Source: Bacillota bacterium (GTDB lineage: Bacteria > Bacillota > Limnochordia > Limnochordales > DUMU01). Taken from it: a stretch of 64,000 nucleotides of DNA. The stretch covers positions 1 through 64,000 of the forward strand of contig DUMU01000001.1 of the NCBI GenBank assembly GCA_012839805.1, written 5' to 3'. A program made the translations under genes and the position numbers. Below, one piece after another: positions 51,737-64,000 of this stretch. The first letter of the stretch is position 1, and each line of letters starts with the position of its first letter. Below the pieces are notes generated by a model that was given only the letters and a program-made list of their open reading frames with translations, made no database searches and was not told the DNA's origin.

Positions 51737-52786
<1,050 letters not shown>

Positions 52787-52869
52787 CGCGGGGGCAGCAT
52801 GCCACCCGGGCGGCCAGGGCGAGCCGGGCCGCCCGGGGCGATGGCCGGCAACACAAGGAGGAAAGGCCT

Positions 52870-54060
52870 ATGCGCAAACTGAGCGTGCGCGACGTGGACG
52901 TGCGCGGCAAGCGAGTCCTCGTTCGAGTCGACTTCAACGTCCCCCTGCAAGATGGGAAGATCACCGACGATACCCGCATCCGGGCGGCCCTGCCCACCAT
53001 TCAGCTGCTCCTCGACCGCGGGGCCAAGGTGATCCTTTGCTCACACCTGGGACGCCCGGACGGCAAGGTGGTGGAGGGCCTTCGGCTTACCCCCGTAGCC
53101 CGGCGTCTGGAAGAGCTCCTGCACCGCCCGGTCACCATGGCTCCTGACTGCGTAGGGCCCGAGGTGGAGTCGCTGGTCGACCGCATGCAGCCCGGCGACG
53201 TGCTCATGCTGGAGAACCTGCGCTTCCACCCGGAGGAGGAAGCCAACGATCCCGGCTTCGCGCGGGAACTGGCACGCCTTGCCGACGTTTGGGTTAACGA
53301 TGCCTTCGGCGCCGCTCACCGGGCCCACGCCAGTACCGCCGGCGTGGGACAGTATCTGCCCGGGGTGGCGGGTCTGCTCATGGAGAAAGAGATCTCCATC
53401 ATGGGCAAAGCGCTGGAAAACCCCGAGCGCCCATTCCTGGCCATTCTCGGCGGAGCCAAAGTGAAGGACAAAATCGGGGTGATCCGCAACCTGATACCCA
53501 AGGTCGACACGCTGCTGATCGGCGGGGGCATGGCCTATACTTTCCTCAAGGCGCAGGGACTCGAGATCGGCCGCTCCATCCTCGATGAGAAAAACCTGAA
53601 ACTCGCAGGTGAACTGCTGGAAGAGGCCCGCTCCCGCGGGGTCGAGGTTTTGCTTCCGGTGGACGTGGTGGTAGCCGATCGCTTCGCCCCCGATGCCCGG
53701 ACCAAGGTGGTGCCGGTCGATCAGATTCCGGCGGACTGGGAGGGGCTCGACATCGGGCCCAAGACCCGCGAACTCTTCGCCAGCCGGATTGCCCAGGCTC
53801 GTACGGTGATCTGGAATGGCCCCTTGGGGGTCTTCGAAATGCCGGCTTTTGCCGAGGGGACGAACGCCATCGCCCGTGCCCTGGCCGAGAGCAGCGCCGT
53901 CTCCATCATCGGCGGGGGCGATAGTGCGGCCGCGGTAGAGCAGGCAGGAGTAGCCGGCCGGATGACCCACGTATCTACCGGCGGAGGTGCCTCGCTCGAG
54001 TTCCTGGAGGGCCGGGAGTTGCCCGGGGTAGCCGCACTCCAGGATGCAAAGGACGTCTAA
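52870..54060 (+). CDS. pgk: Phosphoglycerate kinase
   Basis: A protein of 396 residues from ATG 52870, behind AAGGAGG; the frame is open upstream to 52729 but that part overlaps gapA. Signatures: [50 protein letters not shown], the hinge [16 protein letters not shown] and the ATP loop [14 protein letters not shown] with [15 protein letters not shown]. It makes ATP from 1,3-bisphosphoglycerate. Not fused to tpiA, unlike in Thermotoga. Confidence 0.97.
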
Positions 54061-54118
54061 GGCGCCCGGGATGTGCGCGAGGTGCAGGCTGGGCAGGATG
54101 GCATAGGGGGTCGTCCAG

Positions 54119-56223
<2,105 letters not shown>

Positions 56224-56717: not shown

Positions 56718-58451
56718 ATGCACCAGGAGGAACACGCGGTGCGTGGCCTGGCCCGCGCTCCGTGGTTTTGGATGTCCGCCGGGCTTGTGCTCGCCTTTCT
56801 GGCGGCCATGATTCTGCCCTGGCTACTTTCCGAGGCTCCCGGGCTCTTTTTCTCCCCGGGGACGCCGAGGAGAACGCAAGCACCCGGTTATGGCACAGCA
56901 TTGTACGAGGAACTGACTCAACCCGAGGTTTACTGGTTGAACCAACCTGCCGGGCGGGCGTCGTCTACCGGGCAGGGCTGGTCCAAAGGAGCTTACCGGA
57001 TCCCCTGGACCACCGCGCCTCCCCCGGAAGCGGGCCTCCCTCTCCCGCAGGCCGGGCGCCTCTACCGGCCGTGGCTGCGCCCGGTGTTGCCACCGGCCTA
57101 CATCTTCCCCCGTTTGGGTTCAGGCGGCGGGCCGGCACCGGATGAGCGGGAGTCACCGGCGTTTACGGATATCAACCCGCCGGGGTTCCCCGGTCTGCGG
57201 CTTGCCCCCTTCGTGCTTTTTCCTCTCCCACCTGAACTGAGCTTGTCTTCACTGCTTGCCACCCTGCCCTCCCCGGCGCCGGCTTCGGAGCCGCCCGCGG
57301 GAGTTCCGCCGGGCTCCACCGGCTGGAGTACCTCGCATCGGGACGAGGAGATGCAAGGTGGCGAAGCCGGTGACGAAAGCATGCCTGCCGGCAATGAAGG
57401 GGCCAGGAGGTCTACAAGGCGATGGCAGATACCGCGTCCGGCGCTGACCCCGGTCTTCGGGTTCATCAGGCGGGCCGCCCGGTATTCGCCTCTACCTCCC
57501 GGCGAGGTTCGCGGGCTTCACGCGAGCAGTAACCAGGCCGGGTCGGCCCGGATGACTTCCATCGTTCGCACTGCCGAACAAGTGGGGCTGAATGCGGTGG
57601 TCGTGGAGATCAAAGACGAGTTCGGCCGCCTGGCTTACCAGAGTCGTGTACCGCTGGCCCGGGAGATCGGCGCCGGCACCGACCGGATCCCCGATGTTCG
57701 TGCTTTCCTTGCGGACCTGCATGAGCGGGGGTTTTACGTGATAGCCCGCATGGTTACCTTCCAGGACGGCAAGCTGGCTGAGGGGCGTCCTGAGCTCGCC
57801 ATCCGCCGTCGCAGCGGGGGGATTTGGCGGAACAGCCAGGGGCTGGCCTGGGTCGACCCGGGATTGGGCGAGGTCTGGCGATACGAGGTGGACATAGCGG
57901 AGGAAGCCCTCCAGCTGGGATTCGACGAGGTCCAGTTCGACTACGTCCGTTTTCCTACCGACGGTAACATCAGCGACGTGGTCTCAGTGGTTCCGGCCTC
58001 GCAGCGGGTGACCGCCATTGCGGCTTTTCTGGACTACGCCAAGGAACGGCTTGCTCCCTACGGGCGGCCGGTCTCGGCCGACGTCTTCGGTTTCGTGGCC
58101 ACGGCCGAGGACGACCTCGGGATCGGGCAGCACCTGGAAGAGGTGGCGAGGTCCATGGATTTCGTCTCGCCCATGGTATATCCGTCCCACTATCCCAAGG
58201 GCTCTTATGGCTTCGCGGATCCGGATGCCGAGCCCTATGGCGTCATCCGCCACGCGCTGGGCGTGGCGGCCAGCCGCATCGGTACGGAGAAGCTGCGGCC
58301 ATGGCTCCAGAGTTTCAGCCTGCGGCACGTCTACGGGCCGGAGGAGATCGCCGCTCAACTGCGGGCAGTTCACGAGACCGGAATCAGTAGCTGGCTCTTT
58401 TGGAACGCCAGCGGTCGATACAACCTTCTCGAGGGTTTGCCTCCGCTATAG
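56718..58451 (+). CDS. Membrane-anchored DUF4015 putative glycoside hydrolase
   Basis: A protein of 577 residues from ATG 56718, behind AGGGGAG. An N-terminal hydrophobic helix (WFWMSAGLVLAFLAAMILPWLL) acts as anchor or uncleaved signal. Residues about 40-250 are Pro/Gly/Ser-rich linker. The C-terminal half (about 250-575) is a TIM-barrel-like DUF4015/GHL domain: VRGLHASSNQAGS, LNAVVVEIKDEFGRLAY, WVDPGLGEVWRYEV, GFDEVQFDYVRFPTDG, MDFVSPMVYPSHYP. The acidic pair in DEVQFDYVRFP would be the likely active site by analogy with other barrel hydrolases. It may act on surface polysaccharide. Substrate unknown. Confidence 0.82.
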   Translation: MHQEEHAVRGLARAPWFWMSAGLVLAFLAAMILPWLLSEAPGLFFSPGTPRRTQAPGYGTALYEELTQPEVYWLNQPAGRASSTGQGWSKGAYRIPWTTAPPPEAGLPLPQAGRLYRPWLRPVLPPAYIFPRLGSGGGPAPDERESPAFTDINPPGFPGLRLAPFVLFPLPPELSLSSLLATLPSPAPASEPPAGVPPGSTGWSTSHRDEEMQGGEAGDESMPAGNEGARRSTRRWQIPRPALTPVFGFIRRAARYSPLPPGEVRGLHASSNQAGSARMTSIVRTAEQVGLNAVVVEIKDEFGRLAYQSRVPLAREIGAGTDRIPDVRAFLADLHERGFYVIARMVTFQDGKLAEGRPELAIRRRSGGIWRNSQGLAWVDPGLGEVWRYEVDIAEEALQLGFDEVQFDYVRFPTDGNISDVVSVVPASQRVTAIAAFLDYAKERLAPYGRPVSADVFGFVATAEDDLGIGQHLEEVARSMDFVSPMVYPSHYPKGSYGFADPDAEPYGVIRHALGVAASRIGTEKLRPWLQSFSLRHVYGPEEIAAQLRAVHETGISSWLFWNASGRYNLLEGLPPL

Positions 58452-58568
58452 CCGGCCTTCGACGGACCCGGCCGTTTTGCCCCCCGGCGCTGCTGAGGCA
58501 GGAAGGTATGGGGGGCGCCGGGCCGAATAGATGGAGCAAAGGCTCTCTGCTCGCAGGGAGGCGACACC

Positions 58569-61500
58569 GTGGCGAGCCACGAATTCATCCCGCGTGGGCG
58601 GCCGGGGCCGCTCACGACTTTGTTGGTAGTCCTGGTGCTGGCGACGGCCTTTTCGATCTTGCCGTCTTTTCCCCCTGCGATGGCGGCCGCCCCTGCCTCA
58701 CCGGCGCTGCCGCCGGTCCCGGGGGAGCTTTCGATCTCCGGGACCGTGGAGTGGAGTGCCGGCTACCCGCTGGGGGAGGCCGAGGCCCTGCGAGGCACGG
58801 GGCTCGCCCCGGGGGTGCTGCGCCTGGAGCAGCGAATCCACCTGGGCTTGACCGGGGTCGTCCTGCCGGCAGTAACCGTTCGAGCCGATCTGGACAACTC
58901 GCGGGGGGACAACCTGCAGCTTCTCGCTTTGACCCTCGAGAGTCCCCAACTCCACGGGCGACTGGGCAATCAGACGACCGATAGCGAGATCCCGCAAACC
59001 ATAGCCTCTTTCTCCATAAATGGAGTTTCACTGGCCTATGACCGCTCGCATTCTCCCTGGGAGTACCGCCTGGTGGTGGGAAGGGTTACCGGAATACCGG
59101 AAAGTCGCACCTTCACCGGGGGCAGCAGCGAGGAGACGGTCCAGTACGTGCCGGGCGGCCCCGAGGTTCCCACCCGGCAGGAGGGAATCCTGGTGGCGGG
59201 TCTGGCGGGCATGCCCTCAGCGCGGCTGGCCAAAGCCGGCTTTGACGAGCAATTCACCCAGGCGTTCCTGGTCTACCGGCCCTCCGGCGAGGGTGGCGGG
59301 GGATTGCGGGAGTTTTTGGCCGGATATGGGCTCGACTACCTCTACGCGGCCGGAGGCGGTGGCGATGACGACCCGGGGGTGATCCGGGAAGGCGAAGGAC
59401 GCGCCATTCCCGGCGGGCAATACGCGGTGGTCCCCGGTGACGGGTATGAGCACATCGTCTTTCGTCGCCCCGTGTTACAGCTGGTGCGGCAACACGTTCA
59501 GGAACTAATCCAGGAGTACAACGAGAAAAACGGGCTACGGGGTGAAGCCGCCCGGCGGTATCCCTTCGTGGCCGGCACCGGCGAGGAAGAGACCTTCCTC
59601 ACCAGGCTCACGCGCGGTTTCCTCGACCTGGTGGTGGGGACGGGGGCGGGCGATCCCGACCCTTTGCTGGCCATCGGACTCCATCAGGTGGTAGCCAGCC
59701 GGCGCTTCTACGACCTGGGCCACGCCGGGATCGTGCCGGACTCGGTGGAAGTGCAGGTTTTCCAACGTAATGTCTGGCGGAAAGCGCAGGAGATTCCCGG
59801 CTTCAGCTTTACCGTCGCGCCGGAGAGCGGGGTGGTAGAGTTCAGCCTGCCGGCCGGTTTCTCCTGGGAGACGGATTCCGTTCGGGTTCATTACCGTTAC
59901 CGGGTCGCAGATAACGTTTATTGGCTGGGAACGGGGATCGTACGGGCCAGCGAGAAGGTCTACCTCAACGATCGGCTGCTCACCCGTGACCAGGACTATT
60001 CCATCGACTATGAGAACGGCCTTTTGATCATGCTCCGCCCGGTATTGCCCTCGGATCGCTTGCGTATAGACTACGAACACTATCGGGGCTGGGGTGGCGG
60101 GGGCTTTGCCGAGTACCAGGCGAACGTGGTGGGCCTGCGGTCGACGTATGCCCCGGACGACAAGACTTCGCTCACCATCGAAGGGTGGCAAGCCTGGGAG
60201 AGCGCGCTGCCCGAAGCCGAAAGGGTCAATGCCATCACCATGCCGGGGACGCATCGGGTGGCGGCCGTGAGCCTGAAGACGGAAAAAGCCGGCTTCGAAC
60301 TGGAGGCAAGCGCGGCTTTCAGCTGGAACCAGTTCCCGTTCGACGACAACCGGCGACCGCCCCAGGCGAACCAGGTGGAGACGATGGCCTTTGAACCGCT
60401 TTCCCCCTCCGGCGATGGCGTTTTGCTGGTGGGTCACCGGGCCGGCCTGACCGTTCTCTGGCGGGGGAAGGAGGAGCAATACGGCCCGATGCAGGGGGTC
60501 GCGGGGGCGGTACTCAGCCTTGCCGTCTCCCCGGAAGCATTCTGGGCCGGCACGGAAAGAGGCCTGCTGAGGGTGGCGCGAGATAGCGGGGGAAGCGGGC
60601 CGGGGATGGGTGATCCGGGCGAGTCGTCGCCCTTTGCCCGGCTGGCCAACTGGTCGCGCTACGGCCGGGCGGAGGGTTTGCCGTCGGATCGGGTGACGGC
60701 CCTGGCCATCGGCGGGGGGCGGGTGTGGGCCGGCACGGAGGCGGGGCTGGCCAGTGCGCCCCTCACCGATCTGACGAACTGGCAAACCCTTCTGCGCTCG
60801 GAAGCGATAGAAAGCCTGGCGTGGGAGGGCACGAGCCGGCGGGGAGCTCTCTGGATAGGCACCACGCGGCGGCTCGTTCGCCTGGAATGGGACGGGGAGG
60901 GGGGGACCGTGCGCGAGATCCGGCTTGTTACCGGCGAGACGCAGGCCATAACTGCGGTCTGCGTCGTGGAAGCCAGCCCCGACCTGGCCGGAGTGTGGGT
61001 GGCCACTCGGGACCGGCTTTTCCATCTGCCTGCCGGCAGTGACCCGTACCAGCCGGGCAACTGGTCTGTGGTCGCAACCGCGCCGGAGCTCGACGGAGAA
61101 TTACTGTCTCTTGTTTTCTGGCCCAACGGGGGCGGCCCCGGGCTCGACCGGCTGGCCGTGGGTACCAACACGGGCCTTTGGGTGGTAGCAGCGAACGAAA
61201 CGGGGCGGGGCTGGAACAAGTGGAGGGTCGAAGGCACCTTCGGGTGGGAGATAACGGCGGTCACGGCGGCGCCTCCTACCGCCGATCCGGTCCTTTGGGC
61301 CGGGAGCCGGGGATCGCTTCGGGCCGAACCGAAACCGGGGGATTCGTCACGCCACTTCGTGCGTTTGTGGAGCGCCAGTTCGGAAGATAGCTGGCAGGTG
61401 GTGGAGGGAGACGAGATCGGTATCCCGGGTGACGATCCCTACCGGCGTGACGACCTTCCCGCCTCCGGGCACGAGCGCAGCGGCTTCGCGGCCCGGCTCA

Positions 61501-62963
61501 GCCTCGGGCGGTCGTGGAGCTGGGGGGAGGTCGACCTTCGCCTCCTCCACATCGACCCGGGTTTCCTCACCATCGGGCAACGGCGTCGCAGTGACCTCAC
61601 CTCCGGTGAACTCGAACTCACCCTCACGCCGGCCCCCGGGCTGGGAGTGACGGCCAGCTACTCGCAACGGGTGGCGGGGCGCGAAGGGGAAGGCGAAGGC
61701 GGGCGATACCGGGCGGCGGTCTACGGCCTGTCGTTCGAAACGGCACGCTACGGCGCTCAACTGGACGGCACCTACCGCCGGGAGAACGTGGACGACCGGA
61801 ACGATGGCCGGCTCGATCAGGCACGGACGTCGGTCCGGTTGTCGGCGAGCTACGGCTTCTGGCAAGACCGGCTCCGGCTGAACGCCAGCTGGGAGGGACT
61901 GGAGTACCGTGACGTGAACCAACCGGGCTCCAATACCAGTTCCGGCGAGGTCACGGTCGGCCTGCGGGCGACTCCGTCCCGGAGCTGGTCGTGGGAGGTA
62001 GAGTTCCGGCGGCCCTGGGAGTGGTGGGCGGGTAGTTCCGGAGTCCCGCCCGGCCGGCCCGAAGCCGGCGTGGCGGTAGAGGAATGGACCAGCCGGGCCA
62101 GCTGGAATCTCACCCTGGGCGGCTCCCCGCGCCGGCCGCTTTGGCGCTGGACCGGGCTCGCCACCGCGTTGGCCGGGCGGCGGCTTCCCGGCGGTGAGGA
62201 ACAGCAGAGCCTTTACCTCCAATCGAATGCCAGCTTTGCCACGTTCATGCTGGGCACTTGGGAGGTTATTCCCGCTTTCTCCGTGCGCCACAGTTACCTC
62301 GATCCCTACTCCGGTGAACCGCATTCCATCTCGCGGGGAGAAGGTAGCACCCGCCTCACCGGGAGCCTGGCGCCGGGAATAACTGCCGAGCTTTCCGCAG
62401 GTAGTTCAGTGGAACTCGATGCTTACCCGCTCTCCCGGCGCCTCACGCAGCGCTGGTCGACCTGGTTGGCAGTGACGGCCGAGACCGGCCGGCGATGGCG
62501 CCCCGAGCTCAACCTCTCCTGGCGGGAGAGCCGATCGGTGCACCCGCGCTATGGTGAGCGCAGGACGACGGAGATGACGGTCGAAGCGGGAGTTCGTTCG
62601 CCGCTCGGGATCGCGGGCCTCGCCGCCGAGCAAGAAACGAAACTGCGCCTCGGTCGACAGCGGGAGACGCGGGAGGGTAGCCCTTCGGTGAAAACCACCC
62701 ACCAGGCTCGCCTCACCGGAATGGTCTCTTACAGCCCGGCCGGGGGCTGGGGGGTGGCGTTGACGGGGGCCGTCGAGGCGGAGTGGGAGGCACTGGCAAA
62801 GCCCAAAACCGTGGTGGAAATAGAGGGCTCGGTGGCCCGGCAGCTCGGTTCGACGTGGGACGTCGGCGTCTCCCTGACTTATCGTCGCGTTGACGGGGAG
62901 CGGGAGGGTGATCCTGCCGCCCGGGCCTGGATCCCCAAGGTGACGGTGAAGGCGGTGTTCTAG
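58569..62963 (+). CDS. Giant exported protein: beta-propeller between beta-barrel-like regions
   Basis: A protein of 1464 residues from GTG 58569, behind GGGAGGCG. An export signal covers about residues 15-42. The N-terminal 600 residues are beta-rich, with alternating strands (LRLEQRIHLGLTGVVLP, VTVRADLDNSRG) and a segment VYLNDRLLTRDQDYSIDYEN found in large outer-membrane proteins of the SprA type. About 615-960 carry six W-x-G-T-type repeats (AGTERGL, AGTEAGL, IGTTRRL, VATRDRL, VGTNTGL, AGSRGSL) of a propeller. About 967-1464 alternate hydrophobic and polar residues with Tyr/Trp/Arg, as in transmembrane barrels, and end TVKAVF, with terminal Phe as in outer-membrane proteins. I know no named family with this order. 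Role unknown. Confidence 0.65.
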   Translation: MASHEFIPRGRPGPLTTLLVVLVLATAFSILPSFPPAMAAAPASPALPPVPGELSISGTVEWSAGYPLGEAEALRGTGLAPGVLRLEQRIHLGLTGVVLPAVTVRADLDNSRGDNLQLLALTLESPQLHGRLGNQTTDSEIPQTIASFSINGVSLAYDRSHSPWEYRLVVGRVTGIPESRTFTGGSSEETVQYVPGGPEVPTRQEGILVAGLAGMPSARLAKAGFDEQFTQAFLVYRPSGEGGGGLREFLAGYGLDYLYAAGGGGDDDPGVIREGEGRAIPGGQYAVVPGDGYEHIVFRRPVLQLVRQHVQELIQEYNEKNGLRGEAARRYPFVAGTGEEETFLTRLTRGFLDLVVGTGAGDPDPLLAIGLHQVVASRRFYDLGHAGIVPDSVEVQVFQRNVWRKAQEIPGFSFTVAPESGVVEFSLPAGFSWETDSVRVHYRYRVADNVYWLGTGIVRASEKVYLNDRLLTRDQDYSIDYENGLLIMLRPVLPSDRLRIDYEHYRGWGGGGFAEYQANVVGLRSTYAPDDKTSLTIEGWQAWESALPEAERVNAITMPGTHRVAAVSLKTEKAGFELEASAAFSWNQFPFDDNRRPPQANQVETMAFEPLSPSGDGVLLVGHRAGLTVLWRGKEEQYGPMQGVAGAVLSLAVSPEAFWAGTERGLLRVARDSGGSGPGMGDPGESSPFARLANWSRYGRAEGLPSDRVTALAIGGGRVWAGTEAGLASAPLTDLTNWQTLLRSEAIESLAWEGTSRRGALWIGTTRRLVRLEWDGEGGTVREIRLVTGETQAITAVCVVEASPDLAGVWVATRDRLFHLPAGSDPYQPGNWSVVATAPELDGELLSLVFWPNGGGPGLDRLAVGTNTGLWVVAANETGRGWNKWRVEGTFGWEITAVTAAPPTADPVLWAGSRGSLRAEPKPGDSSRHFVRLWSASSEDSWQVVEGDEIGIPGDDPYRRDDLPASGHERSGFAARLSLGRSWSWGEVDLRLLHIDPGFLTIGQRRRSDLTSGELELTLTPAPGLGVTASYSQRVAGREGEGEGGRYRAAVYGLSFETARYGAQLDGTYRRENVDDRNDGRLDQARTSVRLSASYGFWQDRLRLNASWEGLEYRDVNQPGSNTSSGEVTVGLRATPSRSWSWEVEFRRPWEWWAGSSGVPPGRPEAGVAVEEWTSRASWNLTLGGSPRRPLWRWTGLATALAGRRLPGGEEQQSLYLQSNASFATFMLGTWEVIPAFSVRHSYLDPYSGEPHSISRGEGSTRLTGSLAPGITAELSAGSSVELDAYPLSRRLTQRWSTWLAVTAETGRRWRPELNLSWRESRSVHPRYGERRTTEMTVEAGVRSPLGIAGLAAEQETKLRLGRQRETREGSPSVKTTHQARLTGMVSYSPAGGWGVALTGAVEAEWEALAKPKTVVEIEGSVARQLGSTWDVGVSLTYRRVDGEREGDPAARAWIPKVTVKAVF

Positions 62964-63026: not shown

Positions 63027-64000
63027 ATGGGGGTAGTTGACGGATCACGCAGGATGGGCCGGGGCCTGGGCTTGGCCCTGATCTGGTTACTCGGGCTGGT
63101 GCTCGTCTCGAGCTCTGCCGGCGCTGCCGAGCCCATATGGCCGGCCCGGCCGGTGGAGCAGTTCGCCGGCTGGCAACTCTCCGAATCGTGGACGACCCCG
63201 GTAGCGCCGGGTGTGGTTCACCTGGAAGAGCGGTTCGTGAACGGGCGGGGGGAGCGGCTGGTGGTTCACCGGCTGCAGGTAAACCTGGAGGAGCCGACCG
63301 TACGGGTGCGCCTTTCGCTCCCCCAGGGGGAAGTGCTGCCGCTTGAGACATGCAGTGCCCGGGCCCGCCGGGAAAGCCGGCCCGGGGCACGGGTGGTGGC
63401 GGCGGTGAACGGCGACTTTTACACCGTAACGCCGCCTTTCGCCGGCCTGCCCATCGGGTATGCGGTGCGAGAAGGAGAACTCGTTAACACGGGGTACGGG
63501 GGTTGGATGGCGCTGGGGGTCTGGCCGGACGGGCGGGTGGACATCGACACGCTGGGCATGGTAGGCGAGGTGGAGTTCCTGCCTCCGGCCGGTACGGCGG
63601 CTGCGGACGGCACCACCGAAGCCGCCGGCTCTGCCGACCAGGCGGAGGTAGAGACCGTAAGCTTTGCCATCGACCAAATCAACCGGCCGCGGGGTGCAGG
63701 TGGTGGGATCACCCTCTTCACCCCCACCTATGGGCCGGGAACGCTGGCGGACGGAAACGGTGTCGACGTGGTGATACGGGCCGATGAACTACCGCTGCGA
63801 CCCGGCGTGCCCTTGACCGGAACGGTCGTCGCGGTGGTGGCGGGAGAACGGAATACCTCGATCCCGCGCGACGGCCTGGTGCTCTCCGCCGCCGGCTACT
63901 CCGGTCTGCAGCTGGCCAAGGCGGCGCCGGTGGGGACGCGGGTCAAGATCACGGTGCACCTGGTGGGCTTGGGGTCCCGTACCTCCTGGGACGGCGTGGC
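63027..64000 (+). CDS. NAGPA/DUF2233-family phosphodiester glycosidase-like protein (3' truncated)
   Basis: The frame is open from ATG 63027 to the window edge, at least 324 codons. A signal peptide is evident (LGLALIWLLGLVLVSSSAGA). The hallmark of the family follows near residue 125: VVAAVNGDFYT, then GLPIGYAVREGELVNTG. Members include the uncovering enzyme of lysosomal sorting and many bacterial exopolysaccharide-linked proteins. Bacterial copies often continue into S-layer or repeat domains; the missing end prevents a check. GGAGG lies 12 bases before the start. It follows the giant propeller/barrel protein by 63 bases, so the two may share a transcript. Confidence 0.8.
   Translation, partial: MGVVDGSRRMGRGLGLALIWLLGLVLVSSSAGAAEPIWPARPVEQFAGWQLSESWTTPVAPGVVHLEERFVNGRGERLVVHRLQVNLEEPTVRVRLSLPQGEVLPLETCSARARRESRPGARVVAAVNGDFYTVTPPFAGLPIGYAVREGELVNTGYGGWMALGVWPDGRVDIDTLGMVGEVEFLPPAGTAAADGTTEAAGSADQAEVETVSFAIDQINRPRGAGGGITLFTPTYGPGTLADGNGVDVVIRADELPLRPGVPLTGTVVAVVAGERNTSIPRDGLVLSAAGYSGLQLAKAAPVGTRVKITVHLVGLGSRTSWDGV

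Follow-up and report, generated by a model that had tools for sequence, protein, structure and literature searches.

The gene at positions 58569-62963 (+ strand) of the window, i.e., the whole 64,000-nucleotide stretch of DNA analysed, encodes a protein of 1464 aa which, as judged from its sequence, probably serves a type IX-like secretion route of diderm Bacillota as its translocon in the outer membrane. This reading is based on a three-part homology to the type IX secretion system (T9SS), operon linkage in relatives, co-occurrence across genomes, and an outer-membrane marker. Since a SprA-like gene, a matching shuttle and tagged cargo are encoded in the same genome, export along similar lines probably takes place well beyond the known range of this system.

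The window is part of contig 46 of a 2.78 Mb genome (G000), in which the gene occurs in one copy. It consists of one open frame, starting with GTG 7 bases downstream of a ribosome-binding site (GGGAGG, 58556-58561, + strand, read from the sequence), and its product is assigned as a SprA-like outer-membrane protein with an inserted propeller. A scan for promoters and terminators around the gene gave results no better than shuffles. An apparent Sec-type signal peptide of approximately residues 1-40 (58569-58688), recognised by inspection from its hydrophobic stretch and AMAA end, is followed on the same strand by the N-part (residues 41-606, 58689-60386), the propeller (residues 607-960, 60387-61448), and the C-part (residues 961-1464, 61449-62960). 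Searches of Pfam and NCBIfam with the whole protein were sub-threshold throughout, except for a local SprA match. The new family proposed in the initial annotation is supported inasmuch as no Pfam or NCBIfam model covers the protein. To call it an undescribed barrel would fall short, though, as the N-part is homologous to SprA.

A profile of the N-part, built without the propeller, retrieved SprA as the sole significant match in the PDB (E 4.5e-9; next match 0.61). The alignment consists of two collinear stretches, profile positions 24-133 with SprA 149-263 (approximately residues 64-173, 58758-59087, + strand) and 396-527 with SprA 681-808. The latter is represented by a module at residues 440-503 (59886-60077, + strand), which is also the site of the local match to the SprA model TIGR04189 (E 4e-4) and carries the segment DYSIDYENG. 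An SprA-like D-Y-x-I-D-Y-E-N segment had already been pointed out in the initial annotation; the pattern DYxIDYENG at residues 476-484 was reached in 0 of 1000 shuffles, and local TIGR04189 matches were observed in 16 out of 17 homologues as well (best 2.9e-10). With 17.6 bits for the window protein and at most approximately 38 bits for its relatives, all scores are far below the curated cut-off of 200 bits, and neither the window protein nor its relatives belong to the SprA/Sov equivalog family. The significant collinear similarity outside the propeller places the protein in the SprA superfamily, and by its profile the N-part is a specific, distant SprA homologue outside the equivalog family. 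For the C-part profile, no recognisable SprA sequence match was obtained in the PDB profile search.

Compared to SprA/Sov (TIGR04189; PDB 6H3I, 8GLJ), the N-part is homologous, genes for PorV-family and C-terminal domain (CTD) cargo proteins are linked in relatives, and a very large barrel is expected here as well. SprA, however, comprises approximately 2400 residues instead of 1464, whereas the present protein carries an inserted propeller and occurs in Bacillota. The superfamily is characterised by a closed barrel of approximately 36 strands with a lateral opening; here amphipathic strands were observed, of which the N-part holds the first barrel-like ones, but the barrel model obtained with AF2 is poor.

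The propeller is a clean insertion according to the alignment, since the stretch equivalent to residues 607-960 measures 305-414 aa in 16 out of 17 homologues, as compared to 10 aa in the remaining one (L080). AF2 predicted seven four-stranded blades at approximately residues 603-943, with pLDDT values mostly of 80-90 over residues 644-904, and both profile and Foldseek searches with this region returned propellers, in agreement with the large propeller domain initially proposed. The six W-x-G-T repeats described together with it have to be replaced by seven blades with three exact repeats and degenerate ones: the exact motif occurs five times in the protein, but only those at 659, 720, and 762 lie on blade repeats, while the one at 452 is located outside the propeller and the one at 752 is out of register, and the motifs of the seven blades are mostly degenerate. 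The propeller is of the same type as the Reg_prop propellers of Bacteroides hybrid sensors (BT4673) and of PorZ, a surface protein of the T9SS that binds anionic LPS (PMC8545088). In contrast to both, a single propeller is placed within a predicted barrel protein. The PorZ model NF052228 is matched by 6 of the 17 homologues. A special fusion of PorZ into SprA was considered and rejected, because the propeller resembles those of the sensors more closely (1e-21, compared to 0.003 for PorZ).

In the C-part, the putative main part of the barrel, amphipathic strand-like windows cover 69% of the sequence as compared to 40% in shuffles (z 4.6). The same was observed for the C-parts of all 17 homologues (z 2.6-7.1), with values of -2.4 to 0.8 for the propeller and soluble neighbours. 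The last residue is Phe, as in nearly all homologues, so that the alternating-strand stretch with terminal Phe noticed beforehand is confirmed. The only PDB match of the C-part profile is the porin KdgM (E 0.025). The AF2 runs covered residues 41-640 and 265-1464 with few alignment rows, and only the propeller came out well; the C-part reached pLDDT values of 20-40, too low to show a closed barrel, and Foldseek with the modelled N-part was uninformative. Omp85 was found in all 19 family-bearing genomes, including two with short variants, compared to 78 out of 300 overall (hypergeometric 1e-12, relatedness ignored), and is also encoded in the genome of the window; for cultivated Limnochordia, diderm cell walls were reported (PMC11456536). 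An outer-membrane protein with an inserted propeller and a putative barrel, as initially suggested, is therefore supported. Due to the presence of Omp85 in all 19 family-bearing genomes of the phylum sample, close homologues in single-membrane species, named beforehand as evidence against such a protein, were not encountered there.

Homologues were identified in 7 out of 14 genomes of the order Limnochordales and, in a phylum sample of 300 genomes, in 15 further ones belonging to six additional GTDB families; where assemblies are split, some homologues are present as fragments. Another two genomes of this sample (G207 and G227) contain nothing but a short relative. Full-length homologues occur both in the order itself and in the six additional families, so that the family is spread over seven GTDB families of the phylum in all. 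The alignment comprises 17 sequences, all of which share the N-part and the C-part. In the contig profile search, a single-sequence query gave no match, and the alignment query gave three Limnochordaceae loci.

The gene is located between a DUF4015 protein gene on its 5' side (56718-58451) and a gene encoding a NAGPA-like exported protein of 913 aa on its 3' side (63027-64000 in the window, L018:5028-7769). Further upstream, an ordinary run of glycolytic genes encoding GAPDH, PGK, TPI, and enolase is situated at 51779-56223. A surface-polysaccharide role had been deduced from the DUF4015 and NAGPA neighbours; it was rejected, since this neighbourhood is poorly conserved and the NAGPA-like gene adjoins the SprA-like gene in only one relative (G002, 55% identity). 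Conserved beside the gene are instead those for PorV-family and CTD-cargo proteins. The alternative proposal of an export role gained support.

Clusters of the SprA-like gene with PorV-family and CTD-protein genes were observed in G005, G012, G108, G126, G136, G172, G181, G205, G236, and G302. The CTD proteins of these clusters are exported, and their C-terminal domain is Ig-like. By type, the cargo comprises proteases (S8 and M6), RCC1 propellers, and proteins with PKD or LTD domains. In searches against the PDB, the PorV-family profile matched best to PorV of SprA complexes (E 5.3e-8), and the CTD profile to the CTD of PorU (E 1.8e-6), followed by 8glj_D (E 0.0097), a substrate CTD trapped in the SprA translocon, both ahead of flagellar FlgD. 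The best PDB matches of the partner genes are thus components of the T9SS, in which PorV shuttles serve type A CTD cargo. With NF033709 and TIGR04183, the partner genes gave matches that in some cases exceed the curated cut-offs. Among 28 CTD genes at the loci covered, 26 have a PorV-family neighbour on the same strand within 400 bases, a figure biased upward because some loci were picked by PorV matches; PorV-family neighbours were likewise found at the loci picked by CTD alone (L128, L130-L133). In F. johnsoniae, one PorV serves all type A CTDs, and type B CTDs have shuttles of their own (PMC12618676), whereas here usually one PorV-family gene is paired with each cargo gene, which suggests a dedicated PorV-family shuttle per cargo.

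In the genome of the window, CTD and PorV profile searches revealed one such cargo-PorV pair on another contig, away from the SprA-like gene (G000:C21 95560-101547). The cargo gene (L096:3561-8633) encodes an S8 protease of 1690 aa, whose CTD qualifies as type A by TIGR04183 (32.1 bits, cut-off 23). The PorV-family gene (299 aa, L096:8649-9548) follows after 16 bases and matches NF033709 with E 1.1e-19 and 71 bits, below the cut-off of 90. With this shuttle, the exported type A CTD cargo and an outer membrane indicated by Omp85, the T9SS-like set of this genome covers some, but not all, of the features that define a T9SS. GldM gave no match in 17 genomes, but no control genome gave a match either, so that absence is not implied. 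Similarly, no PorU sortase (Peptidase_C25) was above the cut-off in 18 genomes, with one weak match in G172, and again no control matched.

Among 200 genomes of the phylum, those with strong CTDs (E < 1e-14) coincide exactly with those that carry a full-length SprA-like gene (12 genomes). Within the Limnochordales, the SprA-like gene and CTDs are found in the same 7 out of 14 genomes, and both are absent from G001, which belongs to the genus of the window, and from G007, which belongs to the genus of G004. PorV-family genes occur in 18 out of 19 family-bearing genomes as compared to 53 out of 300 overall. Applied to 27 held-out genomes, the prediction held for 3 out of 5 positives and 20 out of 22 negatives; no CTD was found in two genomes expected to have one, and two genomes expected to be free of CTDs contained one. 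All four misses concern draft genomes of families in which other members have the system.

Counting against a translocon are the location of the SprA-like gene apart from the cargo-PorV pair in the genome of the window, the low TIGR04189 scores, the poor barrel model, the C-part lacking a SprA match, the held-out misses, and the undetected GldM and PorU, for which no control matched. An alternative is a SprA-related outer-membrane protein other than a translocon, e.g., a surface glycan-binding or uptake barrel, with the PorV-like barrels and CTD proteins forming a separate display system. Such a protein would agree with a SprA homology confined to two stretches, with the undetected motor and sortase, with the frequent binding of glycans by propellers of this type, such as PorZ (PMC8545088), and with the flanking NAGPA and DUF4015 genes. 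We consider it unlikely, though, in view of the clusters with cargo and PorV genes and of the near-strict co-occurrence with CTDs, including the joint loss in G001 and G007. Markedly less probable is an ordinary T9SS, complete and taken over from Bacteroidota, in which the genes for motor and sortase exist but escaped the searches. No positive control worked for GldM or PorU, and few T9SS components were covered; the similarity to Bacteroidota SprA is very low, however (17-38 bits against a cut-off of 200), the propeller insertion is kept in 16 out of 17 members, and the family is spread over seven GTDB families, so that a recent transfer looks unlikely. The least probable explanation is a multidomain beta protein, secreted or bound to the cell wall, whose C-part is no barrel. 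It would be compatible with the signal peptide, the many beta domains and a C-part model too poor to show a closed barrel. Against it stand the amphipathic alternating strands in all 17 C-parts, the terminal Phe, the association with Omp85, and the PDB matches, of which SprA and a porin are the only ones of note apart from propellers.

For the preferred translocon, from the data above we infer barrel closure, complex formation, transport, and a role of the propeller as follows, with the Flavobacterium translocon as the model (PMC10994853). The protein would be exported by Sec and form a very large SprA-related barrel in the outer membrane, with the propeller inserted in one loop. Cargo, i.e., S8 and M6 proteases and RCC1-propeller and PKD proteins, would reach the periplasm by Sec and then enter the barrel, where its CTD would be bound by a PorV-family shuttle docked at the channel, the PorV loops reaching in through the lateral opening. 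Shuttle and cargo would leave the channel together for the cell surface, as in the Flavobacterium T9SS. The propeller may act on cargo or glycan, or serve as a gate of the channel. It is tempting to speculate, albeit with less confidence than for the translocon itself, that this is a type IX route that manages without GldLM motor and PorU sortase, in which one SprA-like propeller channel is used by cargo proteins with a PorV-family shuttle each; in that case, the T9SS translocon would be older than the FCB lineage or stand apart from it, and would draw on another energy source.

According to surveys and reviews, the T9SS is limited to Bacteroidota or at most to the FCB phyla (PMC4793230, PMC11285876, PMC11205867). 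No report of a T9SS in Bacillota was found in the literature, with a coverage that excludes preprints and most subscription papers. The protein described here is quite likely a type IX-like translocon outside this range, with a new architecture due to the inserted propeller. If true, the occurrence of a SprA-PorV-CTD set in such deep-branching diderm bacteria of the Bacillota would revise the range accepted for the translocon and perhaps its origin, explain the surface placement of proteases and other large proteins in these little-studied bacteria, and provide a system for asking what motor, sortase, and propeller each contribute. Since cultivated Limnochordia exist (PMC11456536), this reading is testable.

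Besides the full-length homologues, short SprA-module proteins of about 580-920 aa were observed in G207 (L083:2183-10099), G227 (L085:4998-9878), and G006 (L121). Two of the three contain a FlgD-like N-terminal domain, and PorV-family genes and weak-CTD proteins are located nearby; possibly they represent a reduced variant of the same route. Weak pairs of CTD and PorV-family genes also occur without a full-length SprA-like gene, at L134 (G132), where a weak SprA-module match is all there is, and at L135 (G091). In G004 (3.82 Mb, single contig; L128-L131), approximately ten CTD matches were found, including RCC1-propeller, M6, and LTD/PKD proteins, most of which adjoin a PorV-family gene.
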